A stretch of 50,592 nucleotides of DNA from a virus: IMG/VR virus record IMGVR_UViG_3300020470_000016, positions 1-50,592 of that record; one strand, 5' to 3'. Below the pieces are notes generated by a model. That model did no database searches. It saw only the letters and a list, made by a program, of their open reading frames with translations, and was not told the DNA's origin. Shown here in pieces: positions 1-50,592 of the stretch; the stretch's first letter is position 1; each line of letters begins with the position of its first letter. Both the position numbers and the translations under genes were made by a program.

Positions 1-84
1 GCTGAGAGATTCACAAACGGTCCTTACAACATTCAGAACAACGGTGACCAAATTAAGATCACTCTAAACGTTGCTCTCGACTGA
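1..84 (+). CDS. C-terminal end of an upstream protein (partial)
   Basis: An open frame runs in from the left edge in frame 1 and ends at a TGA at 82-84, giving 27 residues that finish in ITLNVALD. The gene starts outside the window. A baseplate or tail structural protein is likely because it directly precedes the tail-fibre module, but nothing in these residues identifies a family. It is followed by a hairpin with a T-run, consistent with the end of a transcription unit. Confidence 0.6.
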   Translation, partial: AERFTNGPYNIQNNGDQIKITLNVALD

Positions 85-98
85 TACAACCAATACAA

Positions 99-106
99 AA
101 TAAATA
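99..106 (+). promoter_or_regulatory. Late-promoter-like motif AATAAATA
   Basis: This matches the T4-type late promoter core (TATAAATA in T4, NATAAATA in cyanophages) recognised by gp55-programmed RNA polymerase. It lies 59 bases before the ATG of the 1494-aa gene. A terminator-like hairpin lies between the motif and that gene, which makes its role uncertain. Confidence 0.4.
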
Positions 107-116
107 CATTTCATGT

Positions 117-155
117 GGGGGTTGCTTTATTATTAAGCATCCCCATTTTTATTTT
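117..155 (+). terminator. Rho-independent terminator-like hairpin
   Basis: A GC-rich left arm (GGGGGTTGCTT) pairs imperfectly with AAGCATCCCC across an AT-rich loop. It is followed by ATTTTTATTTTT. It ends the upstream unit just before the 1494-aa gene. Confidence 0.65.
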
Positions 156-164
156 TGAAATTAC

Positions 165-3100
165 ATGGCTAACGTCTTCGTCTACGATGAAACTCGAATA
201 GACTATTTCGTTACAGATACCCACGGAGATCTTTCTGGTACTGTAACGGGGACGGAAGACCTTGGCTCAATTACAGATGCAGATCCACCAATAGAGTATG
301 ATTCTCTGCAATTTAATATTAATAATTGGGGATTTGTAGCTAGAACAGAAGATTTCGCTCCATTTGGAACAGTTGCTGCACTCTCAGGCACGGTAGAGAA
401 GGTAGTATACTCTCCACAGGAGCCATACAACGCATTCTTACTCCAGTCCTCCGCAGGCATCGCCTGGTGTAGGACTACTTGGATTGGATCAGGAACCCTC
501 TTCGAGATCGGTGGAGGACTTGAGAGACTTGTTATACCTGATCTTGGCGCGGCAGGACCATCTCCTGTCCTCTCAGGACAATCCCACAATACTATAACAG
601 CTACCGAAGTCGGTTCTGGTACTGCATTAGCTCTTTCTGAAGCAGAAACATACGAGTTTAATGTTTATCCAGTAGACTCAACAATAGAATTTAAAATCTC
701 TGGTGGTACTACTCAAACCTATCCAAATGAGTGGATCCAGAGTATAGTAGAAGAAGAGCTTAACGGTACGGCTCTAGAAGCGAAGACCTTCTACTATGGT
801 CAGTCAGATACAGTACTTGAAGACGATAACTACGGATGGCTTGCTGGTACTAATGGCAACTCCTTCGATGATAGTACTGCTACATTTGATAGTAATATTT
901 CAAACCAGACCTCTTGGAGTGACGGAGTAGAGGTCGAACAATTCGATTATGGTAGTGTTGCTGCGAGTACAACACAACCAGAAGAGGATTACGGCGAGAT
1001 TGTCATTGGTAACAGATACGGAACTTTCTGGTCACAGAAACTTGCCGCATACGATACCAGTGCAGATTACCGCAAGGTATTCGAATATCATGGATCTGGA
1101 AGTCTTCCAACTTTCGATTCTGGTCGTACTATACCAGCACCACATATTACTGGTTCTGGTACAATTTCTATATCTGGACAACTTGGGTTGTCTCAGGCTC
1201 CTCAACACACAGTATTTGGAGGAGACTTTGGTTCTCTTGTTGGTACTGCAGAAGAGGCATTTGTTCCTGCACTTATCAGGGGTTCTGGTTTACAACTCCT
1301 TGGTGGTGCTGCATCCGAGGCAATTACATATCCAACCGATCCGTCCACAATGGACATCAATATCGGTGGATATGCAGAACAACTCAAACTTACTCATTAT
1401 CCTCCAACTGATACTGCTACACTTGTATACAGTGGTGGAATTACTAATGAGAGAGCAATTACCAAGGAAACTGGTAGTACTCTGTTCTCCTTTGTTGGTG
1501 AACTTACACATCCAGACATTGATTACACTCCACATTGGAAGTCGGCACTTGAAATTGATGGTTATGTAGAACCAGTTGATCTTGGTCTAATAACTGAGGC
1601 GGTTACTCCACCTATTGCTGATTATGGATGGGTTCGTGAAGTTGCTACAACTTCCGATACTTGGGGATATGTTCTTCCTCAATTCAACAATATTAGTGTT
1701 GTTGGTGTTGGTGGTGAGGCATTTGTTCGTGATGCTTATCAAGGATCTGGTATTCTTGCGAAGATTGGTATTGCAGACGTTTCTCGTCCATTCTTCTATA
1801 CAGCAAGTGGTCAGTCTGGCATTGCAACACACAATGCTGGTATCAATATCTTTGGATACTACTGGTTCAGTCAGGCTCCACAACATACAGTATTTGGTCT
1901 CGAAGGCGAATTTACAATACAGGGAAGCAAGGACGAATCCTTTACTCCTGCTCCTCTTACTGGTTCTGGTACTCTTGGTACTATCAGTGGTGCTGCTACA
2001 GATATTACTCTCACCTTCGGTGCTGGTGAGAGGACAATGCTCTTCGACACTGGTGGAACTGCTGGTGTTACATTCTCTGCAGCTCCTAAAGGTGAAGGTA
2101 CTGTTACCCTCAGTCAGGGTAGAGAGGCAGGTCAGACATATCGTAGAGTTATCTACACTGATACTGATATTGTCTTATTCAGACCTACCAATACTCCTGG
2201 CTCCATATTCGAGAAGAATACAGAGTCTTATAACGAATCTGCAATCTACATTCCTGGCGAGAATGCTGATTGGGGTGATCTTAGTGGTACGCCTGCTAGA
2301 GATAGTGGTAATCAGGGTGTCACTTACGATGATACTAATTACGACTTTAGTACTACTAACGTCTCCGAAGACTTCGGAGAAATGCTTAGTGGTCAAATAC
2401 CTGGCGGTCCTCCATACGACCGATTCTTATATCCATACTACACAGGATTCGAAGATCAGGATATTGATCGTGGTTATGCCGACTTTGGTTGGGTTGATGA
2501 TGATACCGTTGATGCTGTTAGAACTCCGTTCGGTAAGATTTCTATCGAACAACCTTCTACCCAGACAGTTACAAGGTACATTCCTCGCTATCCTGGCACA
2601 GGTACATTCCTTGCACTTTCTGGTGCTGCGGAAATACTCACCTTCGACCCACTGGAAGGAGCTCCACTCTTCTCTCCTCAAGGTCAAGGAAAATGGAGTC
2701 TTGTTTGGCAGTCTCCAGAAAATACAGCACAACTTTCTGTTGTTGGTATCTGTTCACATTCCTTCTCAAGAGTTACAGAAGGTTCTGGTCAGATCGATGT
2801 CAATCCTGGCGGTATTCAGACATACAGAAGAATTATCGATATTACCTCTACAGGTATTATCAATCTTACTGGATACAGTGGAGAGGAATTCGTTGCGAAT
2901 CCTCCAGAAGGTTCTGCACTATTCGACTTCTGGTCAACATACTCCAATCTCAATATTACACGGAAGTACTTTGGAGAAAAACCAAGACTTCGCTTGCAAG
3001 GGGAACTCAATCATCCTCAGATCGATTACACTCCTCATTATGGTATCGACAGAAACATCGGTATCGAAACAGGAATTACATTATCGCCTGGTGGTGGTAC

Positions 3101-4649
3101 AGACAGAATTACTGGTATTACAACTGCCAGCTTTATTCCGAAGTATCCAGGCGGTCAATCATCTGCCGATGGAAGAGGCGGTCATACTTGGGAAGTTCTC
3201 AAGCTCAGTGGCAAATCTATCTCTCGTACCAACGCTCCTATTGTTACGGATGGTACGATCTACATTCTTGGTATTGGTACTGCTGGAAACGGCAACATCG
3301 ATCCAATTACAGGAGTTGGAGATCTCGATGGAGTCGAATTTGGTGCAACTTGGGCATTTACACCTGCGACAGCTCGTGGTGGCCCTGGCCTGTATCAATT
3401 CAAGGGTACTGCTCCAAGCAGAGAGATCGCCGTCTATGGTTACTATGGAGACGACCGAGATCCTGGCACTTCAGGTCTTGTTACGATTTCCACAGAGAAA
3501 GACAAGACGGTCGATTACCTCATCAAGAAGTACTCAGGAGATACAGTTTCTCTATCCGTTACAGGAACTCTTACAGAGAGACAATCTTTTGCTTACGATG
3601 GTTCTGGTACATTCAATGGACTATCAGGAGCTGCAGAATCCACAACAGATGCTCTTCTCGCAGAAGGTACTTGGGAAGTTCGTGGATCTGCAAACGAGGC
3701 ATACTCCGCACAAACTCCAGAAGAAACTGCAACATTTACGGTTTCTGGTACAGGTCCAGCATTCAGACTTCGCCAATATGCTGGTTCTGGTACTGCAACT
3801 CTCAACAATACAGAGAAAGTTGTTACAGGAGTCAGATTCAACGTTGTTGTCGATGGTACATTCAGTTCCTTCGGTGGAGCTTCAATATCTCAGACAATTC
3901 CTGGCGCTGCAAGTGGAATTATATTCCATGTTGGTGGAACAGCAGATACCAGAGAAATTGCCAACTACGGTTACTACGGAGACGACAAAGATCCTGGCAC
4001 TTCAGGAACTATCACTATATCTGGAGAACTGCTCCACCCAGATATCGATTACACTCCTTCGCCAACAGGTACAGGCGATATTATCTTTGGTGGTGCTGCA
4101 CTCAAGAAATTCTCTCCAGTCCTTATCGGAAGTGGTTCTGCTACATTCGTTGGTATTGGAGTCGAGAAGTTTATTACTGCGGCTCAGAGAAGTACAATTC
4201 TCTTCGCAATTGCTGGAGATGCAGACGAATCTTTACAGCACGTATTTGGATACTACGGAGACGACAAAGATCCTGGCACGTCAGGAAGTATTACAATTCT
4301 TGGATCTGGAGATACTGCTCCAATTCAGAATTTTGGATATTATGGAGACGACAAGGATCCTGGCACTTCTGGAACAATTACGATTTCTGGAACTCCTCTT
4401 ATACACCCAGAAGTCGATTTCACTCCTTCTCCAGACGGTTCTGGTCTATTCGTTGTTACTGGTACAGTTGGGGTCAAGAGGGCTTGGGCACCAGTTTATG
4501 CAGAAGGAAGTCTATACGGATTCTCTTCTGGCGAAGAGGCATATGCAAGGACTTCTTACATTGGTATTGGTACTGCAAACTTCTTCTCCAACTCTCTCAC
4601 GGAAATTTCCAGATACGAAGAGCCAAGGACTTACGTTGTTATCATATAA
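165..4649 (+). CDS. Large repeat-rich virion structural protein (tail or baseplate fibre)
   Basis: The product is a 1494-aa protein dominated by Gly, Ser and Thr, with very many GSGT-like turns and short beta-strand-like stretches. No catalytic motif, signal peptide or membrane segment is visible. Two kinds of longer repeat are clear: GYYGDDKDPGTSG (four copies in the C-terminal third, one with R for K) and HPDIDYTP-like segments (four copies, each after a short strand). The long beta-repeat architecture and the position upstream of two fibre-like genes suggest an extended virion fibre or baseplate spike. Proteins of this kind occur in T4-like cyanophages as uncharacterised structural proteins. 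Two other forward frames are also open over the 3' half, but I read them as shadows. The exact role is unknown. Confidence 0.85.
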   Translation: MANVFVYDETRIDYFVTDTHGDLSGTVTGTEDLGSITDADPPIEYDSLQFNINNWGFVARTEDFAPFGTVAALSGTVEKVVYSPQEPYNAFLLQSSAGIAWCRTTWIGSGTLFEIGGGLERLVIPDLGAAGPSPVLSGQSHNTITATEVGSGTALALSEAETYEFNVYPVDSTIEFKISGGTTQTYPNEWIQSIVEEELNGTALEAKTFYYGQSDTVLEDDNYGWLAGTNGNSFDDSTATFDSNISNQTSWSDGVEVEQFDYGSVAASTTQPEEDYGEIVIGNRYGTFWSQKLAAYDTSADYRKVFEYHGSGSLPTFDSGRTIPAPHITGSGTISISGQLGLSQAPQHTVFGGDFGSLVGTAEEAFVPALIRGSGLQLLGGAASEAITYPTDPSTMDINIGGYAEQLKLTHYPPTDTATLVYSGGITNERAITKETGSTLFSFVGELTHPDIDYTPHWKSALEIDGYVEPVDLGLITEAVTPPIADYGWVREVATTSDTWGYVLPQFNNISVVGVGGEAFVRDAYQGSGILAKIGIADVSRPFFYTASGQSGIATHNAGINIFGYYWFSQAPQHTVFGLEGEFTIQGSKDESFTPAPLTGSGTLGTISGAATDITLTFGAGERTMLFDTGGTAGVTFSAAPKGEGTVTLSQGREAGQTYRRVIYTDTDIVLFRPTNTPGSIFEKNTESYNESAIYIPGENADWGDLSGTPARDSGNQGVTYDDTNYDFSTTNVSEDFGEMLSGQIPGGPPYDRFLYPYYTGFEDQDIDRGYADFGWVDDDTVDAVRTPFGKISIEQPSTQTVTRYIPRYPGTGTFLALSGAAEILTFDPLEGAPLFSPQGQGKWSLVWQSPENTAQLSVVGICSHSFSRVTEGSGQIDVNPGGIQTYRRIIDITSTGIINLTGYSGEEFVANPPEGSALFDFWSTYSNLNITRKYFGEKPRLRLQGELNHPQIDYTPHYGIDRNIGIETGITLSPGGGTDRITGITTASFIPKYPGGQSSADGRGGHTWEVLKLSGKSISRTNAPIVTDGTIYILGIGTAGNGNIDPITGVGDLDGVEFGATWAFTPATARGGPGLYQFKGTAPSREIAVYGYYGDDRDPGTSGLVTISTEKDKTVDYLIKKYSGDTVSLSVTGTLTERQSFAYDGSGTFNGLSGAAESTTDALLAEGTWEVRGSANEAYSAQTPEETATFTVSGTGPAFRLRQYAGSGTATLNNTEKVVTGVRFNVVVDGTFSSFGGASISQTIPGAASGIIFHVGGTADTREIANYGYYGDDKDPGTSGTITISGELLHPDIDYTPSPTGTGDIIFGGAALKKFSPVLIGSGSATFVGIGVEKFITAAQRSTILFAIAGDADESLQHVFGYYGDDKDPGTSGSITILGSGDTAPIQNFGYYGDDKDPGTSGTITISGTPLIHPEVDFTPSPDGSGLFVVTGTVGVKRAWAPVYAEGSLYGFSSGEEAYARTSYIGIGTANFFSNSLTEISRYEEPRTYVVII

Positions 4650-5564: not shown

Positions 5565-5583
5565 TAATTAACCAGGAGAAACA

Positions 5584-8500
5584 ATGGCTGAGTTTAGACT
5601 TGGAAGAGTAAAATTCAACTGGACGGGCGAATGGCAACCATCCAAATCCTACTTGATTGACGACCTCATCAAGTTCGGTGGAAATAGCTATGTCGCTGTC
5701 ACGAATCATACCTCTGTAGCAACTACCGCAGACTTTTACACAACGGACCTTGCAAAATGGAACGTTCATGTAGAAGGTATCGCCAATAAGGGCGAATGGG
5801 TAACGAACACTTATTACAGAGTGAATGATATTGTCAAGTTCGGCAATGTCCAGTATAGAGTTACAACTGCTCACACTTCCGCAGGTACATTTATTGATCT
5901 AAGTAAATGTGCAGAGTACGTCGCAGGATTTAAAGCTGAGGGCGAGTGGAGTATATCCACCCAGTACCAAGCTGGTGACGTTGTTAACTACAATGGATCT
6001 TCTTACGTCGCTCTAACGACTTCTCTCGCTGGTAATATACCGCCCAACAACGTTGCAATCGGAACAGATATTGCAGGCAAACAATGGCAAGTTCTTGCTG
6101 ATGGTCTTGCTGGTGCTGCTGTCACCTACGTTGACGGAACGTATTACAGAGGTCAATTAGCACAATATGGTGGTAACATTTACCGTCATAAACTAGGTAT
6201 TACAACAAACGTTGCTCCTCTCGCTATCGGCGATACCAATAATCCTGGCGTTGGTATTGGTGCATCTGTTTGGGATCTCCTAGTACAAGGATTTAAATTC
6301 ACTGGTGGTTACGTAACTAGTTTCGATTACCATCCAGGCCACGTTGCAAGATGGGGATCTGATTCCTATGTTGCTATCGGTAACTCATTCAAAGGTATTC
6401 AGCCAAATACTGGTATAGGTACTCAGTGGGAAGTTCTCGCTTCTGGTGACTCCTCTGCTGCCTTAACAACGAAGGGTGATATTCTAACCTTCAATAGTGG
6501 TAACGTAAGAATCGGTATCGGTTCTACAGGTTATGCTCTTGCGGTTCAAGGAGATGGACTGCCTGGCTATGAGGTTGTGGGTGCTCAAACACGAGTCTAT
6601 TATGTTGACTCTGAATCTGGACATGACCAAAACAACGGTCTTGCACCTAACCTAGCGTTTAAGACAATTAAAAAGGCTTGCGACGCTGCTCGTCCTACTA
6701 CACCTGTAACTGGATGTCAATATACAGCTTCGACTGGTTTGGCAACTATTACGGCTCCTGGCCACGGACTACAAAACACTGGTACGTTCGTTCAGTTAGC
6801 AGGACTTAACTTTGAGTGTACATCTGGTGGTCGTATTTACGGCGTACTGGGATTCAACTATACTCAGACAACTGGTATCGCAACAGTAACCGCTATTAAC
6901 ATCGGTGCTGCTCCAGAAACAAGTATTGGTGCTACCGTTCGACTAAGAGATATCGCAGTTCAATATACAACAGGAGGTCAGTTCGACCACCAGTATGTAA
7001 GTTGTGTTACTGATGGTATTTCAGTCGTTGGTGGTGGTACAACAACTGCTACAAGTGCAACATATAATCAGGCAACTGGTGATTTCGTAGTTACAATTCC
7101 TAACCACGTCCTTACAACAAGTGATCAGGTTGGATTTAACACTAACGCATTCACAATGAAGTGTGCTAGAGACAACTATGCAACTAACCATAGTTATCCT
7201 CGTGTAACTGACCCTGCACACAACACAAACCTGAATATTACAGCAACAACTGGTGATACAATCACAGTTAACGTTGGTGCTTCACCTGCAAACACAACAT
7301 TCAACGCTCAGTTCGCTAACGACTTCGGTGAGTCTAACTTCAATGTTACCGCCGTTCCAAGTAACAACTCTGTTGCAGTTGATGTTGGTATTAAGACTTA
7401 CGGTATTACTTACACCTCTGGTGGTGTGATTATGGCTGGTATTACCACCACAATCTTCCCAAGTATTGCTTCTAAGTCCTTCTTCGAAGTTCTTTCAGTT
7501 CCTTCAACAAGTACATTCACATGTAACGTTGGTGTTTCTACAATGAACCACACATACGTTGACAGTGGTACTTTAACTGACTTGACTCCTTGTGTATTGA
7601 GACTATCTGCTTCGCAGTTCTATGAGCAACTGCCAATTACAGTTCCTCCTTACACCTCTATTGTTGGACACTCTCTAAGAGGTACTCAGGTTCTACCTGC
7701 TGCAGGTACATCTGACGACAACACAACTCCAAACAACAGAGCAACGATGTTCAGGTTGTCTGACTCTACAACGATTCAGGCGATGGCCTTCAAGGGTATG
7801 GAAGGATTCAAGTATGATGGTAATGCTCCATTCGTACTAGACAACACAAATATCAGAACTGGTATTGGTACGACTGCCGCTGGTGTATTCATGGCACTCA
7901 ACCCCAATTCACCAATTAATGATAAGTCACCTTACGTTAAGGATTGTACTGCTTTCTCTGACAACGCTACCGAGAACGGTCGTTGGGGAGGCGGCGGCGT
8001 CGGTGTCCTAATTGACGGTGGTGTTCACGATGAAGGTGCTCGTTCGATGGTGTTCGATGCCTTTACCCACGTAACATCTGATGGTGCAGGATATGTTCTA
8101 GATAAGAACGCAATCGCTGAGATTGTTTCCTGTTTCACATACTACGCCAAGTGGGGTTACTACTCAGGTGGTGGATCAAGAATCCGTGCTGTTGGTGGTA
8201 ACAACTCTTACGGTGAGTACGGTGTTATCTCTTCTGGATTCTCTACAGTTGAATCTATTAAGACTGCAAGATTATTTGGAGACATGATGACCATTCAGGC
8301 TGCTACCATCGCAGGTACAGTTGCTGTTGGTCAAACCATGAACGGTGAAACATCTACCTCTAAGGCATGGATCGTTAACGACCAAAGATCTGCTGATAAG
8401 TTATACTTCAAGTACTTCCCAGGCTACGGTGCAACTGCATCCGCAGCAACAGGTAACGTTGCGATTGGTACTTCTCCATTCGTTGATGGTGAAGTTATTT

Positions 8501-9765: not shown

Positions 9766-10548
9766 ATGGCAACTTACGGAAGTTATAAAAAAATAGTCGC
9801 ATCGCAGATTCTCGATAACTCAATTCCTGATAGTGCGTTTGCAGATGGTGCTGGTCCAAAATACAACGTAAAATGGATCCGAGGTCCTATTGGTGGAACC
9901 ACTAGTGGTTGCTGCTGTTATTGGACTGTACCAACAGGTGTGAAGAGAGTTACATTTGATGTTTGGGGTGCAGGTGGAAACGGACATGGATTCTGTTCAT
10001 GGGACCGTTGCCATCACTACTTCGGTGCTGGTGGTGGATATTATTCTACTAAAACAATCGCTGTTCAAGAAGGTTGGAACTATACAATATGTGCAGGTGG
10101 TACTTATCCTTGTTGCTCTTATGAGTGTACAGGATGTAGAGGATGTGCATCTTATGTAAATGGATGTAACCTTTCAAACTTCTGTGCATGGGGTGGAAAT
10201 AGAGGATGTGCAAACACCTCTTGGGCTGAGATGTGTTTCTCCGATTGGAACTGTTGCGTAAGTCCTACTTTTAATGGTTCTGATTTCGCAATGGGTAACA
10301 TGAGACCTGCAGGTACAGGTCCATATAACTGTCACTGCTATCGTCATACATGGTGTGCTGGTAACGCTCCATTCCTCGCTGCAGGAACCCACGGTGGTCA
10401 CCTAGCAGAGTGTTGGAAACGTTGTGCATGTTGGACTGTTCCATATGCATCTGGCGGTCCTGGCGGTATGACTACATATTGTGGTAACTGGGACAACGGT
10501 ACTGGTGGTATCGGTGGTTCTGGTGTTATTAAGATTACATACGTTTAA
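9766..10548 (+). CDS. Gly/Cys-rich adhesin-like protein, copy 1
   Basis: This is the first of three tandem paralogues (260 aa). It contains about 24 cysteines, including GCCC near residue 48, ECTGCRGC near 118 and CHCY near 197. Glycine-rich turns follow a W-TVP-GV-K-x-x-F-x-x-W-GAGGNG motif, which resembles the glycine-rich domain of phage tip adhesins. The chain closes with YCGNWDNG and a strand ending VIKITYV. HHY, CHC and other His/Cys clusters could bind metal or form disulfides. There is no signal peptide. The position directly after the long fibre gene fits a fibre-tip adhesin. Function is inferred from context and composition. Confidence 0.85.
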   Translation: MATYGSYKKIVASQILDNSIPDSAFADGAGPKYNVKWIRGPIGGTTSGCCCYWTVPTGVKRVTFDVWGAGGNGHGFCSWDRCHHYFGAGGGYYSTKTIAVQEGWNYTICAGGTYPCCSYECTGCRGCASYVNGCNLSNFCAWGGNRGCANTSWAEMCFSDWNCCVSPTFNGSDFAMGNMRPAGTGPYNCHCYRHTWCAGNAPFLAAGTHGGHLAECWKRCACWTVPYASGGPGGMTTYCGNWDNGTGGIGGSGVIKITYV

Positions 10549-23973: not shown

Positions 23974-26249
23974 TGCCAGTAACTCCGTTTTTTCTACATG
24001 GTTCGCCAAGCGAACAAAGGTTGGTACAGGATCTTGTCAATGAACATTTGAAAATGTTCGGACAGGATGTTCTTTATTTGCCAAGAAAAATCATTGATGA
24101 AAATACGGTAATAAAAGAGATTGCTGCATCTAGGTTTGATGATAGTTTTAGAATAGAGGCATACCTATCTAACTTTGATGGATTTGGTACACCATCTGAT
24201 ATTCTAACTAAGTTTGGAGTAAGATCACAAGACGAAGTTACTCTTGTTATTTCCAAAGAAAGATATGATGATTTTATTAGTCCTTTCTTAGAATTATATT
24301 CTGCAGATGCTACTGTAAAAGTAACTAATAGACCACAAGAAGGAGATTTAATCTATCTTCCACTTGATAATACATTATTCGAGATCAAATACGTTGAAGG
24401 TAAAGTACCTTTCTATCAGTTAAATGATTTGTTTATGTATGAACTCAGGTGTGAAATCTTTGAGGCTTCAACTGCTGAGGTTATTGATATCTCTGATGTA
24501 GAAACTGGTATGACTGGAGAGGAGATTACAGAACCTCTTACTGGTGGTGCAGTCGCTATGATACTAACTATGGTATCAGCTGCTGCTACAAGTGCTACTG
24601 CAACAGTTTCTTATGCTTCTACTACTCCAGGCGTAATGGGTCTTCATTATGTCGATTTGATTAATGATGGTAATTATGAAGCTACACCTTCTGTCACTAT
24701 AAGTAAACCAGTTAAAGGTAATGCTGCTAGTGCTGATGCAACTGTTGTTGCAGGAGAAGTTACTGCATTAACACTTACCAATGCAGGTACAAATTTCTTA
24801 TCTACTCCTAGTGTAACATTTACTCCACCAAATAGGGTGGTTGCAAGTCAAATTAAGTTTGGAAATAACTCCTTATACCACGATACAACAACTAAGACAC
24901 AAGAAGCACTTTGGAACTTTGCCTCTAATATTGATGCAAGAAATGGTAGAGTTGTAATAAGTTTCTGGTTCTATCCAACAGATTTAAATCCTAGTGCAAA
25001 TGGTGGTGCAATAATTTGGTCTGATCATATTAAGATCTATCATTTACCAGATGGTAAGATACGTTTCGCTTCTGCTCAAACAACTCAAGGTTCTAGTGAA
25101 GCACTCAATCTTAATGCATGGAACTTTATTAGAATTGTTCAAGTAGGAACTGATGCAAGAATTTCTGTTAATGGTGTAAGTGGTGGTCCATATTCAAACG
25201 TTGATCCTATCCCGTTTGCTTCTGGAGATACAGTTTATATTGGTGCTGATGCAGCAGGTGCAGGACGTTACCCAACTGTAACTTCTAGTTATTTGGGATA
25301 TGTTGATCACTTTACAGTGAACTTTACTACAGACACTCAGTTTAGAACTACTGTAGAGACTCAAATTCCAGGCACAATAACAGAACAAGAAGTAGATTTA
25401 CAGACTAGTGAGACTGCTGGATTCATTCAGAACTGTGATAATGAATATCCAACTGTTACTGCTACTATTGATACTAATAGACAAGTAACTGGATTCACTA
25501 TTGTTGATGGTGGACAAGGATATGATACTGTTCCAAACGTAATAATATCTGAACCACAACAAGGAACACAGGCAACTGCGGTTGCTATTATGACCAGTAG
25601 AGGTACTATTCCTGGCCAGGGAATTGATAGGATTGTGATGATTGATCCTGGCGTTGGTTATGATGCTCCTCCGACTGTTACTATTACTGGTGGTGGCGGT
25701 GGTGGTGCTATCGCAACTGCTGTTATTGCAGAGAATGGTTTTGGACCTGTTGCCATATCCAGTGGAGGTGTGGGATACTCAACGGTTCCGAACATTTACG
25801 TAGACAGAATATTCATCCCAACTTCTTCTGGTACTACAACCGCTATTAATAATGTACAAGCAGAGGCAGTACTAGATACTACTGGAACTGTAGTTCAGGT
25901 AAGATTAGCCAATGCTGGTGCAGCATATACATTTACACCTACAGTTACTTTCGATCCAGTAGAAGATCCATCCTTCGGAGATTATTCAGTCAACGAAGTT
26001 ATTCAAGGACTTGAGAGTGGCACTAAGGGATATGTAAGATCTTGGAATTTACCAAATAGAAGACTAGAACTATATTCAGTCGATGGTAAATTTAGACAAG
26101 GAGAGTCTGTTGTTGGTATTGGTGCAAGTTATACTATCTCAAATATCTCTTATAATGAGGAGTCTGGATTCCCAGATAACGAAACAATTGAGTTAGAAGC
26201 AGATGGTATCTTAGATTTTTCTGAGAGAAACCCTTTTGGTGAGTTCTAA
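23973..26249 (+). CDS. 14: Neck protein gp14 with inserted LamG-like domain
   Basis: The product is 758 aa, about three times T4 gp14 (256 aa). Residues 1-170 are gp14-like: LYLPRKIIDE, GVRSQDEVTLVIS, EGDLIYLPLDNTLFEIKYVE and a FYQLND segment. The last residues FSERNPFGEF resemble a gp14 end. Between them lies a large insert of Gly/Thr/Val-rich repeats with GYDTVPNVIISEPQQG-like units. A LamG/concanavalin-like stretch around residues 290-440 has FWFYPTDLNP, WNFIRIVQVG and YIGADAAG. The insert could decorate the neck and bind polysaccharide. It forms the head-tail joint with gp13. Confidence 0.85.
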   Translation: MPVTPFFLHGSPSEQRLVQDLVNEHLKMFGQDVLYLPRKIIDENTVIKEIAASRFDDSFRIEAYLSNFDGFGTPSDILTKFGVRSQDEVTLVISKERYDDFISPFLELYSADATVKVTNRPQEGDLIYLPLDNTLFEIKYVEGKVPFYQLNDLFMYELRCEIFEASTAEVIDISDVETGMTGEEITEPLTGGAVAMILTMVSAAATSATATVSYASTTPGVMGLHYVDLINDGNYEATPSVTISKPVKGNAASADATVVAGEVTALTLTNAGTNFLSTPSVTFTPPNRVVASQIKFGNNSLYHDTTTKTQEALWNFASNIDARNGRVVISFWFYPTDLNPSANGGAIIWSDHIKIYHLPDGKIRFASAQTTQGSSEALNLNAWNFIRIVQVGTDARISVNGVSGGPYSNVDPIPFASGDTVYIGADAAGAGRYPTVTSSYLGYVDHFTVNFTTDTQFRTTVETQIPGTITEQEVDLQTSETAGFIQNCDNEYPTVTATIDTNRQVTGFTIVDGGQGYDTVPNVIISEPQQGTQATAVAIMTSRGTIPGQGIDRIVMIDPGVGYDAPPTVTITGGGGGGAIATAVIAENGFGPVAISSGGVGYSTVPNIYVDRIFIPTSSGTTTAINNVQAEAVLDTTGTVVQVRLANAGAAYTFTPTVTFDPVEDPSFGDYSVNEVIQGLESGTKGYVRSWNLPNRRLELYSVDGKFRQGESVVGIGASYTISNISYNEESGFPDNETIELEADGILDFSERNPFGEF

Positions 26250-27754: not shown

Positions 27755-27920
27755 TCCACAAAAAGAACAAGAACTTTCAATGAAAGCAATGTTATCAAAG
27801 GGGACTTTTGATAAATTGCAGAGTAAACCTACATTGCTTCCAAAAAGAAAGGATAAAAATGAATTAAAGATGATTCTATATTTGATTAAGAAACAGATAG
27901 AGAAGCGAAATGCCAAATAA
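27738..27920 (+). CDS. Small basic protein between terminase genes
   Basis: An open frame of 60 aa from ATG 27738 (62 aa if the GTG at 27732 is used) overlaps gp16 by 17 bases and gp17 by 11 bases. It is strongly basic, with MKKRN, LLPKRKDKNELK and KKQIEKRNAK, and looks helical. No family is recognised. The overlaps and lack of other coding in the gap support a real gene. The weak ribosome-binding site is a caution. Confidence 0.5.
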   Translation: MKKRNSPQKEQELSMKAMLSKGTFDKLQSKPTLLPKRKDKNELKMILYLIKKQIEKRNAK

Positions 27921-29568
27921 TAATGCAGATGTCTATCTTGGTAATCCCAATCTAAAGAGAGCCAATGTTCCTATTGAGTTCACTAAGGATCAGATTGAGG
28001 AATATTTAAAGTGTAAAGATGATCCTGTTTACTTTGCTGAGAATTATGTAAAGATCATCAACTTGGATGAAGGTCTTGTACCTTTTGACATGTATCCCTT
28101 TCAAAGAAAGTTAATCAATAATTTCCATAGTAGTAGATTTAATATATGTAAGATGCCTCGACAGTCAGGTAAGTCAACGACTGTGGTATCTTATCTTTTA
28201 CATTATGCACTCTTTAACGATAGTGTAACCATAGGTATTCTTGCAAACAAAGCTGCAACTGCAAGAGATCTGTTAGGTAGACTTCAAATTGCATACGAAG
28301 CATTACCTACTTGGTTACAACAAGGTATTATTGCATGGAACAAAGGTTCTATGGAATTAGAGAATAAGTCTAAGATCATTGCTGCATCTACCTCTGCATC
28401 TGCTGTTCGGGGTATGTCATTCAACATTATATTCTTGGACGAATTTGCGTTCATTCCCAACCATATTGCAGATGATTTCTTTAGTAGTGTATATCCTACT
28501 ATTAGTTCTGGTAAGTCTACTAAGGTAATTATTGTTTCTACCCCTCGTGGTATGAATCATTTTTACCGATTGTGGCATGATGCAGAACTTGATAGAAACG
28601 AATACGTCACCACGGACGTTCACTGGTCAGAAGTGCCAGGAAGAGACGCTAAGTGGCGAGAACAAACTATTAAAAACACATCAGAAGCTCAGTTCCGAGT
28701 TGAGTTTGAGTGTGAGTTCTTAGGATCTATTGATACTCTTATTGCTCCTGCTAAGTTGAAAACTATGGTTTATAATGAACCATTAGAAAGGACAAAGGGT
28801 GTTGATCTATATCAAAGACCTATAAAGGATCACAATTATGTTATAACTGTTGATGTGGCAAGAGGTGTAGAAAAAGATTATTCTGCTTTTACTATATGCG
28901 ATGTCACTACATTTCCTTATAAGTTGGTTGGAAAGTTTAGAGACAATCATATAAAACCTATGTTGTTCCCTAATGTAATATATGAGTTTGCTAGGGGATA
29001 TAATAATGCGTATGTTCTATGTGAAGTAAATGATATTGGAGATCAAGTAGCATCTATTTTAAATTATGATCTAGAGTATGAGAATCTTCTCATGGCATCT
29101 ATGAGAGGTAGAGCAGGTCAAGTTGTAGGTCAGGGATTCTCTGGTAAGAAAACACAGTTTGGTGTAAAAATGTCCAAGACTGTGAAGAAAGTTGGATCAT
29201 TGAATCTAAAGACTATGATTGAGTCTGACAAACTAATCATAGAAGATTATGATACTATTGCTGAATTAACTACATTCATTCAGAAGGCTAATTCATTCGA
29301 GGCAGAGGAAGGATGTAATGATGACCTTGCAATGTGCCTTGTTATATTTGCATGGTTAGTCGCTCAGGATTACTTTAAGGAGATGACTGACGATGACATT
29401 AGAAAAAGAATTTATGACGAACAGAAAAATCAGATAGAACAGGATATTGCTCCATTTGGTTTTATGGATGATGGTTTAACTGATCAGTCTTCTTTTGTTG
29501 ATCCAGAGGGTGAACGTTGGCATCTGGATGAGTATGGAGACAGATCTTATATGTGGGATTATATGTGA
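27910..29568 (+). CDS. 17: Terminase large subunit gp17
   Basis: The product is 552 aa (T4 gp17 is 610). The ATPase domain has Walker A MPRQSGKST at about residues 82-90 and Walker B IIFLDEFAF with the catalytic Glu near 178. The nuclease domain starts at VDVARGVEKDYSAF near residue 315 and carries further acidic residues (EVNDIGD, then DDLAMCLVIFAW). It packages DNA into the prohead and makes the terminal cuts. It follows gp16 and precedes the tail genes, as in T4. Confidence 0.95.
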   Translation: MPNNNADVYLGNPNLKRANVPIEFTKDQIEEYLKCKDDPVYFAENYVKIINLDEGLVPFDMYPFQRKLINNFHSSRFNICKMPRQSGKSTTVVSYLLHYALFNDSVTIGILANKAATARDLLGRLQIAYEALPTWLQQGIIAWNKGSMELENKSKIIAASTSASAVRGMSFNIIFLDEFAFIPNHIADDFFSSVYPTISSGKSTKVIIVSTPRGMNHFYRLWHDAELDRNEYVTTDVHWSEVPGRDAKWREQTIKNTSEAQFRVEFECEFLGSIDTLIAPAKLKTMVYNEPLERTKGVDLYQRPIKDHNYVITVDVARGVEKDYSAFTICDVTTFPYKLVGKFRDNHIKPMLFPNVIYEFARGYNNAYVLCEVNDIGDQVASILNYDLEYENLLMASMRGRAGQVVGQGFSGKKTQFGVKMSKTVKKVGSLNLKTMIESDKLIIEDYDTIAELTTFIQKANSFEAEEGCNDDLAMCLVIFAWLVAQDYFKEMTDDDIRKRIYDEQKNQIEQDIAPFGFMDDGLTDQSSFVDPEGERWHLDEYGDRSYMWDYM

Positions 29569-33096: not shown

Positions 33097-34797
33097 ATGG
33101 CTAAATTATTTGGTTTCAAAATAGAGAATGAATCTGATTCAAACGCAAAGGGTGTAGTCTCTCCGATACCCAAGTCGAATGAAGATGGTTCTGACTATTT
33201 TGTATCCAGTGGATTCTACGGACAGTATGTAGATATTGATGGTGTATATAAGTCCGAACAGGACTTAATGAAGAGATATCGAGAAATGGCACTTCACCCA
33301 GAAGTGGATAGTGCCATTGAAGATATTATAAACGAAGCAATTGTTTCAGATCAGAATGATTCTCCAGTGCAGATAGATTTGGAGAATGTTCCTGCATCAG
33401 ATACATTAAAGAAATTAATTAGAGATGAATTCAAGAAGATAAAAGAACTTCTTGACTTCGACAAGAAATGTCATGAGATCCTACGCAACTGGTACGTTGA
33501 CGGTAGGATTTTTTATCATAAAGTAATTGATATTAATAAGCCTGAAGATGGATTAAAAGAGGTTAGATATATTGATCCTCTTAAGATTAAACTCATCAGG
33601 AAATTAAAGGATGAGAAAACTTTAGGTGGTGCTATTGCCAGATCTGTTGCAAATGGTGCTGTTAATGGTGCTAATGCAGTAGCAAATACACCAGAGATTG
33701 AAGAGTATTATCTTTTTGATCCTAGTAAAGGAACTGCAAAAGATAGTCTTGGTGGTATAGGACAAGGACCATTTAAGAATGCATTAAAGTCTGTAAGGAT
33801 TGCTCCTGATTCTATTACAATGGTTCATTCTGGACTAGTAGATAGAAACAAACAGACTATTCTTTCTTATCTTCACAAGGCAATCAAGGCACTTAATCAA
33901 CTTAGAATGATTGAGGACTCTCTTGTTATCTACAGGTTGAGTCGTGCTCCTGAAAGAAGGATCTTTTATATCGATGTAGGTAATCTTCCGAAAATTAAGG
34001 CGGAACAGTACCTTAAAGATGTTATGAACCGTTATCGTAACAAGTTGGTTTATAACGCATCTACTGGTGAAATACGGGATGATAAGAAGTACATGGCTAT
34101 GCTGGAGGATTTCTGGCTTCCAAGAAGAGAAGGTGGTAGAGGAACTGAGATCACTACACTTCCTGGCGGACAAAATCTTGGAGAACTTTCTGACATAGAG
34201 TACTTCCAGAAGAAACTTTATAGAGCTCTTGCTATTCCAGAATCACGTATCGCTGGATCTGGAGAAGGGTTTAATCTTGGAAGATCTTCAGAGATCTTAA
34301 GAGATGAGATCAAGTTTACTAAGTTTGTAGGTCGTTTAAGGAAGAGATTCTCTTTCTTATTCAATGACATGCTGAAGACTCAGTTGATCTTAAAGAATAT
34401 CGTTAGTCCAGATGATTGGGATAATCTCTCAGATCACATTCAATATGATTACGTTTATGACAATCATTTTGCAGAACTGAAAGAGACCGAATTAATGAAT
34501 GAAAGACTTGCAGTAGTTGCTGCAACTGAGCCTTATGTTGGTAAGTACTTCTCACTCGATTATGTTAAGAGAAAGATCTTAAAACAGAAAGATGAGGAGA
34601 TCGAAGAACTAGAAGCTCAGATGGCACAAGAGATCGAGGACGGTAAGGTCATTGATCCAATGGAAGTTGCTACTATGGAAATGATGCCTGAACCTGGCAT
34701 GAATGGTGAGATGGGAGACCCTATGGGAGCTCCTGATATGGGTGCAGATCCAGGCGCCTCAAAGGCGGCTCAAATGCCCAAAGGAGGCGAAATATAA
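33097..34797 (+). CDS. 20: Portal protein gp20
   Basis: The product is 566 aa (T4 gp20 is 524). It has the T4-like portal order: ALHPEVDSAIEDIINEAIV near residue 66, LDFDKKCHEILRNWYVDGRIFYHKVID near 123, ALNQLRMIEDSLVIYRLSRAPERRIFYIDVGNLPK near 265, and LPGGQNLGELSDIEYFQKKLYRALAIP near 350. All are given in their recognisable parts. A Met/Gly/Pro-rich C-terminus follows. The portal is the DNA entry ring and the packaging-motor docking site. Confidence 0.95.
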   Translation: MAKLFGFKIENESDSNAKGVVSPIPKSNEDGSDYFVSSGFYGQYVDIDGVYKSEQDLMKRYREMALHPEVDSAIEDIINEAIVSDQNDSPVQIDLENVPASDTLKKLIRDEFKKIKELLDFDKKCHEILRNWYVDGRIFYHKVIDINKPEDGLKEVRYIDPLKIKLIRKLKDEKTLGGAIARSVANGAVNGANAVANTPEIEEYYLFDPSKGTAKDSLGGIGQGPFKNALKSVRIAPDSITMVHSGLVDRNKQTILSYLHKAIKALNQLRMIEDSLVIYRLSRAPERRIFYIDVGNLPKIKAEQYLKDVMNRYRNKLVYNASTGEIRDDKKYMAMLEDFWLPRREGGRGTEITTLPGGQNLGELSDIEYFQKKLYRALAIPESRIAGSGEGFNLGRSSEILRDEIKFTKFVGRLRKRFSFLFNDMLKTQLILKNIVSPDDWDNLSDHIQYDYVYDNHFAELKETELMNERLAVVAATEPYVGKYFSLDYVKRKILKQKDEEIEELEAQMAQEIEDGKVIDPMEVATMEMMPEPGMNGEMGDPMGAPDMGADPGASKAAQMPKGGEI

Positions 34798-41438: not shown

Positions 41439-41855
41439 ATGGAAGAAGAATTTTATGGAACAGTAAAGCTAATATCAGGAGAGGAAATCTTCGCTGAAAT
41501 TCTTCCTGTGAAGGAAGATAATAGGACTTTATTGTTATTGACAGAACCAGTTCAAGTTCAGACAGTATCAGTAGGATCAGATGGTTTGGAGGGAGTTAAG
41601 ATAGATCCTTGGATTAAAACTCAATCTGATAGTATGATTGTTATTGATATGGATAAAGTTATTACAGTCTTAGAAGCAGAAGAGACTGGTGATATGGTTA
41701 AAGCTTATCGAAAATATTTACGCGCCAGGGGTAAGGTTCCAAATAGAACCCAAGTAACTAAAAAAATGGGTTTAGCTGGTTCCGTACAGAAACATAGATT
41801 ACTCTTAGAAAAAATCTATAATAACTCAGCAGCTTCGAATACAGAATCCGACTGA
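41439..41855 (+). CDS. Uncharacterised cyanophage protein, possibly Sm-like
   Basis: This 138-aa protein begins FYGTVKLISGEEIFAEIL, a strand-turn-strand pattern like an Sm/LSm core. It has a helical C-terminus with VKAYRKYLRARGKV and KKMGLAGSVQKHRLLLEKIY. The position between uvsW and gene 55 recurs in cyanophages. An RNA-binding role is possible but unproven. It follows uvsW by 1 base. Confidence 0.6.
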   Translation: MEEEFYGTVKLISGEEIFAEILPVKEDNRTLLLLTEPVQVQTVSVGSDGLEGVKIDPWIKTQSDSMIVIDMDKVITVLEAEETGDMVKAYRKYLRARGKVPNRTQVTKKMGLAGSVQKHRLLLEKIYNNSAASNTESD

Positions 41856-46918: not shown

Positions 46919-49156
46919 ATGTCTACAGTCAACTTTGAAGTTAAAGGTCAGTTAGCAAAGTTACTTGCTACAGAAGATCTTATCATTGAGAACAGAAACG
47001 TCTCTACTGCGTCCTTTGATGTTGTTAAGAGAGTTCTTACCCTTCCATTATGGGAGAAGGCTTCTGGGACCGTATATGACATGCTGGTGGGTCATGAGGT
47101 TGGTCATGCATTGTTCACCCCTCCTGATAATTGGAAAGAAAGATATCCTGACGTGCCTAAATCCTTTGTGAATGTCCTTGAGGATGTTCGTATTGAACGA
47201 TTAATGAAGAGAAAGTATCCAGGCATAAACAAGAGTTTTTACAGTGGATACTCTGAGATGTTAGATCAGGATTTCTTTGGTATTGAAGGGGATGATCCAG
47301 AAGATTTAAAACTTATTGACAGAATCAATCTATATTACAAGGTAGGAAATCTTATAGATATACCGTTCACAGTTGGTGAATCCATTTACGTTAGAAGGGC
47401 TGCAGAAGCAGAAACCTTTGAAGATATTCTTAACCTTGCAAAAGACGTTGCGGAGTATAGTAAAGCCCATGATAACACTAACACCAAAAATACTCACACC
47501 CCTGTCCCAGTTGACTCTTCCCAAGATTCCGAGGGTGAAGGTGAACAGGAAGAAGATAACAGCTTTTCTGATTCTGAGTTGGAAAATTCTTCTATTGAAA
47601 ATGAAGCTGAGAGACCAGATCCACAGGAACAGACTGCTATTGATGATACCGAAGATCAGTTTGAACCACAGGGAGGTGAGACTGGAGATGATTTCGAATC
47701 TCTCACAGATAAAAACCTTGAAGAAAATATCGAGAAACTTGCAGGAGACAGTCAACACTCAGACTTTGCATATGTTGAAGTCCCTCAAATAAATTTAGAT
47801 ACAGTTATTGGTAAGAATGAAGAGATTCATGAATACTTAGAGAATCATTATGTTGACACTCTAAAACAGTGGAACGAACCTGAGAGTAAGTATGGATACT
47901 ACTCTACTCAGACTGATGATCCATTCCGTGAAGTTGATAGTGAGTATGCTGATTTTAGGAAGTCTGCTCAGAAGGAAGTTAATTATCTCGTAAAAGAATT
48001 TGAATGTAAGAAATCTGCAGATGCTTATGCTCGTTCTGCTACTGCTAGAACTGGTGTTTTAGATACTTCTGTTCTTCATCAATATAAGTTTAGTGAAGAT
48101 ATTTTTAAAAAGATAACTGTTGTCCCTGATGGCAAGAATCATGGATTAATATTCATCCTTGATTGGTCTGGATCTATGTCCGAGGTCCTCTTGGATACGG
48201 TTAAACAACTTTATAACTTGGTATGGTTTTGTAAGAAAGTTAGTATTCCATTTGAGGTATATGCCTTTAGTAATCAATGGAATTGCCCCCTACCTGACTG
48301 GGATAATTTACTGGAGAGTGGATATCCAAAGACCATATATCCTAAACCACATGTTGAAAGAAAATCTCATGAGTTGTTTATTGATGATGATTTTTCTTTA
48401 ATGAATCTTTTAACCAGTAGAGTCAAGGGTAAGAAGTTGGAGAACCAACTCGCAAATCTTTATAGACTTGCTTACTCAATGGATATGTCTAAGAGATATA
48501 CCTGTCATTATCAGTATCCTACAAGGTTGTCTCTTTCTGGTACTCCTTTAAATGAGGCTTTGATCTGTTTAAATCAAGTACTTCCAAAATTTCAAAAGGA
48601 AAACAATCTTCAGAAGGTACAATGTATTGTATTAACTGATGGTGAAGCAGCACCAGCAAGATATAGTGTTGATCTTAAACATCGTTATAATCCTGATGAG
48701 GTATACAGTGGTATGCGTCAATGCACATGGAAAAGAACTTTCTTGAGAGATCGTCCTACTGGTAAGGTGTATCAATTTGGAGGTCCAGATTATAGTGGAA
48801 TTACAGAAACATTATTGAGGCAACTTAGAGGTAGGTTCCCTTATAGTAACTTTGTTGGAATAAGGGTACTTGCTCCTAAAGAAGTTAACAATTTTATTCG
48901 TAGATCTACTAATTGGGACTATGATAAGATTGGTAAATATACTGCACAATGGAAGAAAGACAAGACCATATCTCTACTAGATACTGGTTATCATACTTAC
49001 TTTGGATTGTCTTCCAATAATTTGAACAGTGATACTGAATTTGAGGTTAAGGAGGATGCCACCAAGGCACAGATCCGTAGTGCTTTTAAGAAGTCTCTTA
49101 GGAGTAAGAAGATGAACAAGAAAGTCTTAGGAGAGTTCGTTAGTCTCATTGTTTAA
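46919..49156 (+). CDS. CobT-like VWA protein with HExGH motif
   Basis: The product is 745 aa. Near the N-terminus is HEVGHALF (His59, Glu60, His63), a zincin-like motif, followed by a helix with VLEDVRIERLMK. A central acidic, Ser/Glu/Asp-rich stretch spans roughly residues 195-265. A von Willebrand A domain begins with FILDWSGSMSE near residue 411, keeping the DxSxS metal site. The overall layout resembles the CobT subunit of the cobaltochelatase, next to a CobS-like ATPase. The pair resembles MoxR/VWA chaperone systems. The HExGH motif suggests possible peptidase function, unconfirmed. Confidence 0.75.
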   Translation: MSTVNFEVKGQLAKLLATEDLIIENRNVSTASFDVVKRVLTLPLWEKASGTVYDMLVGHEVGHALFTPPDNWKERYPDVPKSFVNVLEDVRIERLMKRKYPGINKSFYSGYSEMLDQDFFGIEGDDPEDLKLIDRINLYYKVGNLIDIPFTVGESIYVRRAAEAETFEDILNLAKDVAEYSKAHDNTNTKNTHTPVPVDSSQDSEGEGEQEEDNSFSDSELENSSIENEAERPDPQEQTAIDDTEDQFEPQGGETGDDFESLTDKNLEENIEKLAGDSQHSDFAYVEVPQINLDTVIGKNEEIHEYLENHYVDTLKQWNEPESKYGYYSTQTDDPFREVDSEYADFRKSAQKEVNYLVKEFECKKSADAYARSATARTGVLDTSVLHQYKFSEDIFKKITVVPDGKNHGLIFILDWSGSMSEVLLDTVKQLYNLVWFCKKVSIPFEVYAFSNQWNCPLPDWDNLLESGYPKTIYPKPHVERKSHELFIDDDFSLMNLLTSRVKGKKLENQLANLYRLAYSMDMSKRYTCHYQYPTRLSLSGTPLNEALICLNQVLPKFQKENNLQKVQCIVLTDGEAAPARYSVDLKHRYNPDEVYSGMRQCTWKRTFLRDRPTGKVYQFGGPDYSGITETLLRQLRGRFPYSNFVGIRVLAPKEVNNFIRRSTNWDYDKIGKYTAQWKKDKTISLLDTGYHTYFGLSSNNLNSDTEFEVKEDATKAQIRSAFKKSLRSKKMNKKVLGEFVSLIV

Positions 49157-49178
49157 CCACTCAAATAAGTGTCACAAT

Positions 49179-49201
49179 GCCTCGTTTAATCGGGGCTTTT
49201 T
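49179..49201 (+). terminator. Rho-independent terminator
   Basis: GCCTCG and CGGGGC pair around TTTAAT and are followed by TTTTT, 22 bases after the CobT-like gene. Confidence 0.75.
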
Positions 49202-49205
49202 ACTT

Positions 49206-49211
49206 TATAAT
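49206..49211 (+). promoter_or_regulatory. Possible -10 box TATAAT of the CobS gene
   Basis: A TATAAT lies directly behind the terminator and 23 bases before the ATG at 49235. No clear -35 is present. Confidence 0.4.
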
Positions 49212-49234
49212 GTATACATACAAACGAACACATC

Positions 49235-50341
49235 ATGCCTTTTGCAACTAAAGTGAATCGGGATTCAATCGCCGACACATTGAGAAACCTTTTTGGAACC
49301 AAACTTACAGCAGCGGACGTAAGGGGTTACTGTAATTCTCAAGGTGTAGCATATCAAACCGTTACCAGAAAACTCGATGCCTACAAGACAGGTCGTGGAA
49401 CATGGGATCTAACTATTGCTCAGAGGCTAGAGAGAACTCTTAATGCTCCTGCTGCTGTTCCTGCTCCCCCAGTTATAGAACAACAGAGTTTAATTCCAGA
49501 GAAGGATGACACCTTCATCAAGTTTGGTAATTTTAGTGACGTTAAGAAGATTATTCAATCTCGTCAATTTTATCCTACCTTTATCACTGGACTTTCTGGT
49601 AATGGTAAGACGTTCAGTGTAGAACAAGCTTGTGCTCAATTGGGTAGAGAACTTGTTCGAGTAAACATTACAATAGAAACAGATGAAGACGACCTTATTG
49701 GTGGGTTTCGCCTTGCTAATGGCGAGACAGTATGGCATAACGGTCCAGTCATCGAAGCATTACAACGTGGTGCAATCTTACTTCTGGATGAAGTGGACCT
49801 TGCATCTAATAAGATACTTTGCTTACAGTCTATCCTAGAAGGTAAAGGAGTATTTCTTAAGAAGATTGGCCAGTATGTTCAACCTGCAGCAGGATTTAAT
49901 ATCATCGCTACTGCAAATACAAAAGGTAAAGGATCTGACGATGGTAGATTCATAGGAACTAATGTTCTTAATGAAGCATTCTTAGAAAGATTCTGTGTTA
50001 CCTTTGAACAACAGTATCCAACACCTCAGTCAGAACAGAAGATTTTGGGAAGAGTTGCTGCTCATTTGGGAGTTACTGATACCGAGTTCTGCAAACGTTT
50101 GGTAGACTGGGCAGACATCATCCGTAGAACCTTCTATGATGGAGGAGTTGAGGAAGTTATCAGTACACGTAGATTGGTACACATTGTACGTGCTTATTCC
50201 ATATGGGGTAATAAGGAGAAGTCAATCGAAGTTTGTGTAAACAGATTTGATGATGAGACCAAACAGGCTTTCTTAGATCTCTATGATAAGGTAGATGGAG
50301 ATGTTGACTTTAATCAGGTGGAGGAAAATGAGGAAAATTGA
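49235..50341 (+). CDS. cobS: CobS-like AAA+ ATPase
   Basis: The product is 368 aa. Walker A GLSGNGKT near residues 119-126, Walker B ILLLDEVDLA near 180 and NIIATANTKGKGSDDGRF with sensor 1 match the CobS family of MoxR AAA+ ATPases. The N-terminal 60 residues have a helix-turn-helix-like AYQTVTRKLDAYKTG. CobS homologues are a hallmark of T4-like cyanophages. In bacteria CobS with CobT and CobN inserts cobalt in cobalamin synthesis. The phage role is unknown. Confidence 0.9.
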   Translation: MPFATKVNRDSIADTLRNLFGTKLTAADVRGYCNSQGVAYQTVTRKLDAYKTGRGTWDLTIAQRLERTLNAPAAVPAPPVIEQQSLIPEKDDTFIKFGNFSDVKKIIQSRQFYPTFITGLSGNGKTFSVEQACAQLGRELVRVNITIETDEDDLIGGFRLANGETVWHNGPVIEALQRGAILLLDEVDLASNKILCLQSILEGKGVFLKKIGQYVQPAAGFNIIATANTKGKGSDDGRFIGTNVLNEAFLERFCVTFEQQYPTPQSEQKILGRVAAHLGVTDTEFCKRLVDWADIIRRTFYDGGVEEVISTRRLVHIVRAYSIWGNKEKSIEVCVNRFDDETKQAFLDLYDKVDGDVDFNQVEENEEN

Positions 50342-50507
50342 TCCGAGTGAGTATATGGTAGATGGATGGGATAGTGCCCCATACCATGTCCATCCATATG
50401 TGAGAGGATCCCGTCACAATAAAATTGGGATGTGGATTATGTGGACATACTATGTTTTGTTTGCTGGTATGTTCATTAGAGGCCTTATTATCTTTTTAAA
50501 TCGATGA
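50328..50507 (+). CDS. Small single-pass membrane protein
   Basis: The product is 59 aa from ATG 50328, which has a GGAGG site 4 bases before it and overlaps cobS by 14 bases. The first 33 residues are polar (DPSEYMVDGWDSAPYHVHPY). Residues 34-57 are a hydrophobic helix with MWTYYVLFAGMF. No family is recognised. It overlaps the next start (ATGA). Confidence 0.65.
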   Translation: MRKIDPSEYMVDGWDSAPYHVHPYVRGSRHNKIGMWIMWTYYVLFAGMFIRGLIIFLNR

Positions 50508-50592
50508 AAAATCTCTGGGATAATTACAAAGCTCTTCTGTTTGAAACGTTTCCTGATCTTGTCCATGATTCAACTTGGGCAGATTGGGAAGC
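50504..50592 (+). CDS. Start of a gene truncated at the right edge
   Basis: An open frame starts at ATG 50504, overlapping the preceding stop, and runs off the window. It begins MKNLWDNYKALLFETFPD. Twenty-nine complete codons do not identify a family. The overlap suggests cotranslation with the membrane peptide. Confidence 0.6.
   Translation, partial: MKNLWDNYKALLFETFPDLVHDSTWADWE

Follow-up and report, generated by a model that had tools for sequence, protein, structure and literature searches.

Why does a phage keep the pentamer CCWGG (W, A or T) almost solely where a G precedes it or a C follows it? The question is raised by a viral stretch of 50,592 bases, the full IMG/VR record IMGVR_UViG_3300020470_000016 (positions 1 to 50,592; hereafter the window), which holds the structural region of a T4-like cyanophage and has Synechococcus phage S-SSM7 as its nearest isolate. 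The flank rule was counted in the window and its relatives, extends to six palindromes, and is associated with a gene for a DruA/DUF4338 protein. The phage probably marks its own DNA at GCY (Y, C or T) via this enzyme, hiding the restriction palindromes that the triplet overlaps.

The CCWGG rule in the window

Of the 62 CCWGG sites in the window, 61 are preceded by G, followed by C, or both, which places GCC over the site on one strand or the other. These exact counts bear out the first-pass annotation, which had put them at about 62 and 61 and had located the lone exception in a ribosome-binding site; that exception is non-coding and lies between two genes. All 60 coding copies are flanked and none is unflanked. 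Synonymous codons were shuffled 500 times within the window genes, giving 13.7 ± 3.2 flanked and 55.7 ± 4.6 unflanked copies and never fewer than 44 unflanked. Either flank is present at ~20% of sites under this null, and the annotation's estimate that chance would leave about 60% with neither flank was too low, the shuffled value being ~80%. The coding total is barely reduced (60 observed, 69 expected from the shuffles), so sites were converted, not merely lost. Tabulated per frame, sites in each of the three codon phases obey the rule, as had been claimed from other reading frames, and 54 of the 60 coding sites begin at codon position 1. At 43 gap-free positions where Sf-FS3 has HCCWGGD (H, not G; D, not C), the window has the core with a protected flank at 22, has lost the core at 21, and retains no unprotected site; the typical change is TCCTGGT to TCCTGGC. 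CCGG is absent against ~32 expected, and CCSGG (S, C or G) is therefore absent too.

Distribution among phages and hosts

Flanked copies make up 196/206 CCWGG in S-SSM7, 208/215 in G001 (a 230.7-kb relative) and 125/126 in nine IMG/VR neighbours, and 152/830 in other cyanophages, which lack the CCWGG rule. The nearest terminase relatives follow the rule except L001–L003; L028 is a partial case among the more distant cyanophages sampled. L001–L003 and Sf-FS3 are close relatives without the rule at CCWGG. Prochlorococcus DNA has no CCWGG flank bias (0.38 observed, 0.35 expected), and host DNA shows neither comparable palindrome purging nor flank bias. A host-genome origin of the bias was rejected, with no effect found in Prochlorococcus, Synechococcus RCC307 or Cyanobium DNA. 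Which sites are purged differs between relatives: ATGCAT, CAATTG, TTCGAA and CTGCAG without a 5′ G are fully purged in S-SSM7 and present in the window; CCATGG, by contrast, occurs in S-SSM7 and not in the window.

From CCWGG to GCY

Within the clade, GCY overlaps 639/660 CCWGG, 5/5 CCGG, 40/46 CCATGG, 26/30 CCTAGG, 94/102 CTGCAG and 8/8 CTCGAG; in comparison phages it overlaps ~13–32% of the same palindromes. All 8 CTGCAG exceptions are in the window, and a 5′ G precedes 27/27 copies in S-SSM7 and 30/30 in G001. Enrichment of 5′ G over purged palindromes is 3.8-fold for those starting with CC, 4.8-fold for CT, 1.3-fold for CA and 0.5-fold for CG, and CAATTG, CACGTG and CGCG are not rescued by a 5′ G. 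GCC and GCT thus protect, and GCA and GCG do not; GCY on a single strand suffices. The same bias was looked for in unrelated words, and CCAAGG, CCACGG and other non-palindromes, non-palindromic CCNNGG words among them, have no flank rule. Because CCGG contains no adenine and the other sites have no adenine in common at a constant spacing from the flank, the mark would most simply sit on the GCY cytosine or on the guanine paired with it.

Type II palindromes are underrepresented in the clade, with 5 CCGG seen and 402 expected, 0 GGTACC against 146, and 0 GTGCAC against 116. The clade and other cyanophages alike have no, or almost no, GGTACC, GTGCAC, TGCGCA, GACGTC or GTCGAC. In S-SM2 (L107, L139–L145), CTAG is absent against 278 expected, and there is no rescue by a G flank.

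Sites that escape the rule have a common context. In S-SSM7 all exceptions (10/206 CCWGG, 3/21 CCATGG, 3/13 CCTAGG) overlap GGWCC, as do 29/31 of the pooled clade exceptions at these palindromes, compared with 42/702 HCCWGGD in other phages. This overlap implies a second, putatively AvaII-like protecting mark. Across L081, L083–L086 and L087–L103 (S-SSM7, G001, G002), sites without GCY overlap nearly all overlap GGWCC, and S-SSM7 has 150 GGWCC and no GGSCC. P-SSM2 (L105, L108–L118) has 80/313 CCWGG overlapping GGWCC, several-fold the usual rate and possibly a Gly-Pro-Gly repeat. The first-pass annotation had offered two readings. Avoidance of HCCWGGD is insufficient alone, since a single 7-bp nuclease target would leave unexplained the identical flank rule at five other palindromes and the GGWCC rescue; modification at overlapping GCC/GGC is strongly supported, in a form generalized to GCY.

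The candidate gene

SSSM7_173 of S-SSM7 encodes a 380-residue DUF4338/DruA (PF14236) protein directly upstream of the clamp-loader gene gp62. Its central 100 residues match PF14236 at 44 bits (cut-off, 27; E, 1e-11), and the PADLOC match has a value of 5e-6. The protein includes an invariant GGKLL stretch. Annotated neighbours of the phage gene are gp44, gp62 and regA. The gene is present in S-SSM7, G001, FS3 and S-SM2 and is lacking in P-SSM2 and S-SCSM1. PF14236 exceeded the curated cut-off in 11/20 genomes searched, and 31 records of the phage collection carry the gene. The S-SCSM2R record annotates its homologue as methylcarbamoylase mom. DUF4338 is classed in the literature as a GNAT domain (PMC10853773), and the literature searched contained nothing direct on DUF4338 as a DNA modifier, context-dependent site avoidance or DNA acylation.

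Domain searches of S-SSM7 and G001 returned no C5 (PF00145) or N4/N6 (PF01555) methyltransferase. FS3 had no match to PF01555 or in a scan for the methyltransferase motifs PCQ and [DNS]PP[YF]; PF00145 was not searched in FS3. No TET/JBP (PF12851) match was found in the rule-positive genomes searched, a weak absence with a silent control. P-SSM2 has two PF01555 methyltransferases. SSSM7_035 was rejected as the modifier, being nuclease-like with an HNH domain and without a match in the other rule-positive carriers. This 505-residue protein (L083:33641-35158; Sf-FS3, L129:14055-15542) has a C-terminal HNH domain. To the eye its N terminus is DUF262-like, and the protein is possibly GmrSD-like; in a set of 50,697 phage records it occurs only in S-SSM7, S-SSM6a and Sf-FS3.

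Association of gene and rule

Newly fetched carriers and non-carriers were scored prospectively for the flanks of surviving CCGG, and FS3, P-SSM2 and S-SCSM1 from the earlier counts are listed with them. In six carriers that purge CCGG, survivors stand beside G in 12/12 cases in FS3, 12/12 in S-SCSM2R, 16/16 in DSL-LC02, 37/37 in S-CAM9, 28/28 in S-PRM1 and 11/13 in S-T4, or 116/118 pooled, compared with an expected fraction of 0.17–0.28. Five non-carriers that purge CCGG (P-SSM4, S-SM1, S-PM2, P-SSM2 and S-SCSM1) have none against 38–128 expected each, and have also lost the ~1/5 of CCGG that would be G-flanked. P-TIM68, in which CCGG is not purged, gives no information on this point.

Palindromes with an internal GCY are likewise relieved in carriers. 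Observed-to-expected ratios are 0.61–1.16 in eight carriers and 0.28–0.52 in six non-carriers, with no overlap (p = 3e-4), and GCA/GCG palindromes show no difference between carriers and non-carriers. In a scan of all trinucleotides, GCT and GCC were the top classes among those with at least six palindromes. The carrier contrast was repeated in two metagenomic sets (0.80 against 0.40 and 0.87 against 0.53; for GCA, 0.71 against 0.68). In the core-gene tree, carriers that follow the rule occupy at least three separate positions, with non-carriers and carriers of the short form between them. Of 80 gene-carrying IMG/VR loci, the ~19 having at least four CCWGG that are all G-flanked are spread across 55–90% protein identity; metagenomic loci without CCWGG purging are uninformative.

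A second, diverged DUF4338 gene was found in Pelagibacter phage HTVC008M (L356:6116-7255; relatives L498–L577). All surviving GATC (70/70), GANTC (37/37) and GTATAC (11/11) in this genome have a 5′ G. Among metagenomic loci purged of GATC, G-flanked survivors number 214/231 in 41 loci with this subfamily and 12/48 in 10 loci without it. This second rule lends support to the view that each DUF4338 subfamily marks DNA in a context of its own.

Proposed mechanism

The DUF4338 protein, a predicted GNAT-fold enzyme encoded in the clamp-loader cluster, would modify GCY, most simply at the cytosine after G. With GCY over it on one strand or the other, a restriction palindrome would then escape cutting. 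Palindromes lacking the overlap would be cut in some hosts and purged by selection, and escape would often take the form of a synonymous flank change (GGT to GGC) that retains the site. From the counts we infer the modification by this protein, the marked base, a chemical group and a host type II enzyme; an EcoRII/Dcm-like host enzyme is a plausible cutter.

A structure model was built from 26 metagenomic homologues, with a predicted local distance difference test (pLDDT) score of 68.6. Its top Foldseek matches are mostly GNAT enzymes, none at E ≤ 0.001. VIA-align 2 gave Z scores up to 8.2 over 143–173 residues against GNAT acyltransferases, and Z 7.6 against phage Mu Mom (PDB 8bv8), one among many GNAT matches. 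As modelled, the protein has a GNAT fold, and acyl-CoA binding and acyl transfer would be expected of a GNAT enzyme. Profile comparison of DruA-like proteins with Mom (PF25680) gave an hhalign probability of 3.3%, and a Pfam scan returns DruA, not Mom. We would put at about even chances the wider proposal that DUF4338/DruA, independently of Mom, constitutes a second family of GNAT enzymes that modify DNA bases. The short motifs that such enzymes recognize would be evolvable (GCY in cyanophages; a 5′ G with GATC/GANTC in Pelagibacter-like phages), and acylation of an exocyclic amine of cytosine or guanine would be the probable chemistry.

Several points weigh against DNA marking by the DUF4338 enzyme. 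The clearest is a metagenomic group (L436-449) that purges CCGG partly and shows no G enrichment. A shorter DUF4338 form (S-SM2, S-SRM01, S-B68) gives no GCY relief and resembles non-carriers. Two non-carriers, P-SSM4 (L395–L402) and P-SSM2, retain CCATGG solely with a 5′ G (5/5 and 3/3). S-SSM7 lacks CCGG altogether, GCY-overlapped copies included, and protection by GGWCC is not accounted for by the enzyme. The window contig stops ~5 kb short of the S-SSM7 position of the gene. Model confidence is moderate, and a Z score near 8 is not decisive for a single family. The flank and internal-GCY tests are not fully corrected for shared ancestry, an effect of kinship that is reduced and remains. 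Carrier genomes were picked by gene presence, which makes the search for other genes with the same distribution (below) partly circular, though not the flank and internal-GCY tests.

Alternative explanations

That host methyltransferases lay the GCY mark (and the GGWCC mark) during replication, the phage passing the marks on, is improbable. GGWCC overlap protects too and has the look of an AvaII-type methylase, and searches of S-SSM7 gave no canonical C5 or N4/N6 methyltransferase. However, WH7803 was the isolation host of phages of both kinds: S-SCSM2R, S-PRM1 and S-T4 obey the rule and S-SCSM1 and S-PM2 do not. The rule co-varies with the gene, and this split speaks against a host enzyme. 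A host methyltransferase origin is likely enough if only the GGWCC protection is considered.

It is equally doubtful that a different phage gene, linked to DUF4338, makes the mark. Association is no proof, and many hypothetical genes have no annotation. None of the other open reading frames of S-SSM7 (302) or S-CAM9 (204), however, occurs in all seven rule-positive and none of the five rule-negative genomes, which were picked by the gene, and the second DUF4338 subfamily follows a second rule.

The Mom-family protein SSSM7_282 (PF25680) is a very unlikely modifier. S-SSM7 and G001 both have this Mom protein (96% identical), and metagenomic cyanophage loci with a Mom at least 87% identical follow the CCWGG rule except L166, with one stray site in L156. 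Nevertheless FS3 has no Mom and yet follows the rule at CCGG, and no rule is seen in several carriers of Mom from other hosts. Mom is a GNAT DNA-base acyltransferase that targets adenine and is sometimes fused to a nuclease (PMC7824862), but the protected contexts, CCGG among them, have no adenine in common; Mom was set aside as the cause on the grounds of FS3 and the missing adenine. Unrelated viral contigs with a Mom-like gene (L172, L173, L207–L211) show a G-flank rule at CCWGG (L173, 12/12) or CCGG (L207–L211, 16/16). In phage DSL-LC03 (L213:19469-20639) a Mom-like gene overlaps an annotated type II restriction endonuclease, a possible modification and restriction pair.

A phage or host nuclease recognizing HCCWGGD, with the site avoided and no modification involved, accounts for CCWGG by itself but fails for CCATGG, CCTAGG, CTGCAG, CTCGAG, the CCGG flanks, the GGWCC rescue and the internal-GCY relief, and is effectively refuted. 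Codon usage, mutation bias or chance might be suspected from the location of most sites at Pro-Gly codons, with their choice of GGC or GGT, but is already refuted by the shuffles, by the obedience of other phases and the opposite flank, and by close relatives without the CCWGG rule.

Position of the window and its features

A concatenated core-gene tree groups the window beside S-SSM7, G001 and Sf-FS3. In the S-SSM7 reference, cobS lies at 141057-142172 and the DUF4338 gene at 147240-148382, ~5 kb past cobS. The DruA/DUF4338 gene of the window's phage would be expected, from this kinship, just past the right contig end. Landmarks and representative sites are listed in Table 1.

Table 1. Gene landmarks and representative CCWGG sites of the window
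Feature	Position	Strand	Remark
Terminase large subunit (gp17)	27910..29568	+	Gene used for finding relatives and placing the phage
cobS-like gene	49235..50341	+	Right contig end
ACCAGGA	5571..5577	.	Only unprotected CCWGG; intergenic, ribosome-binding region of a gene whose start is at 5584
CGCCTGGT	463..467	.	Representative site, 5′ G protection
TCCTGGC	2196..2200	.	Representative site, 3′ C protection (GCC on minus strand)
TCCTGGC	10459..10463	.	Representative site
CCTGGCCAGG	25611..25620	.	Pair of CCWGG sites with common protecting GGCC
TCCTGGC	34162..34166	.	Representative site, portal gene
GCCAGGG	41725..41729	.	Representative site
Whole contig	1..50592	.	0 CCGG, 0 GGTACC, 0 CCATGG

Comparison with known systems

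The specificity of an uncharacterized DNA modification can be read from the restriction sites that a genome retains, and the approach is applicable to any phage collection for other hidden modifications and their genes. Marking of GCY would account for some marine cyanophages tolerating sites that relatives purge completely. It also provides a concrete candidate function for a widespread family known chiefly by name from Druantia, for which DNA marking would be a new use. If DUF4338 proteins are DNA-base modifiers, DruA of Druantia may itself be a DNA-modifying component.

DruA of Druantia (DUF4338, PF14236) belongs to the same Pfam family across the central 100 residues. By its annotated neighbours the phage gene, in contrast, stands alone in a replication cluster (no search was aimed at DruE, a helicase partner of DruA in Druantia), and the phage data point to shielding of phage DNA and not to attack on phages. 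Mom of phage Mu marks adenine within a five-base context. Like the candidate it is a GNAT-fold phage protein, and it modifies bases and shields DNA from restriction (PF25680; PDB 8bv8). The two have no profile-level sequence similarity, and the context here is GCY without a constant adenine.

Phage hypermodification systems, including a GpC C5-methyltransferase with TET, and 7-deazaguanine at GA/GGC in phage CAjan, use short motif marks that protect many sites. They differ from the present case, in which the rule-positive genomes searched had no C5 methyltransferase or TET/JBP match (the TET control was silent). MetaGPA (PMC8670742) likewise ties a DNA-modification phenotype to genes by association over phage contigs; there the phenotype is measured on DNA, and in the present case sequence avoidance is its sole readout. 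Restriction-site avoidance in phages (Rusinov 2018, PMC6286503) resembles the present case in that type II palindromes are fully purged, and the words flank, overlap and cyanophage are absent from that text. The difference is that purging here depends on the neighbouring base, and so would read out the motif of a modification.

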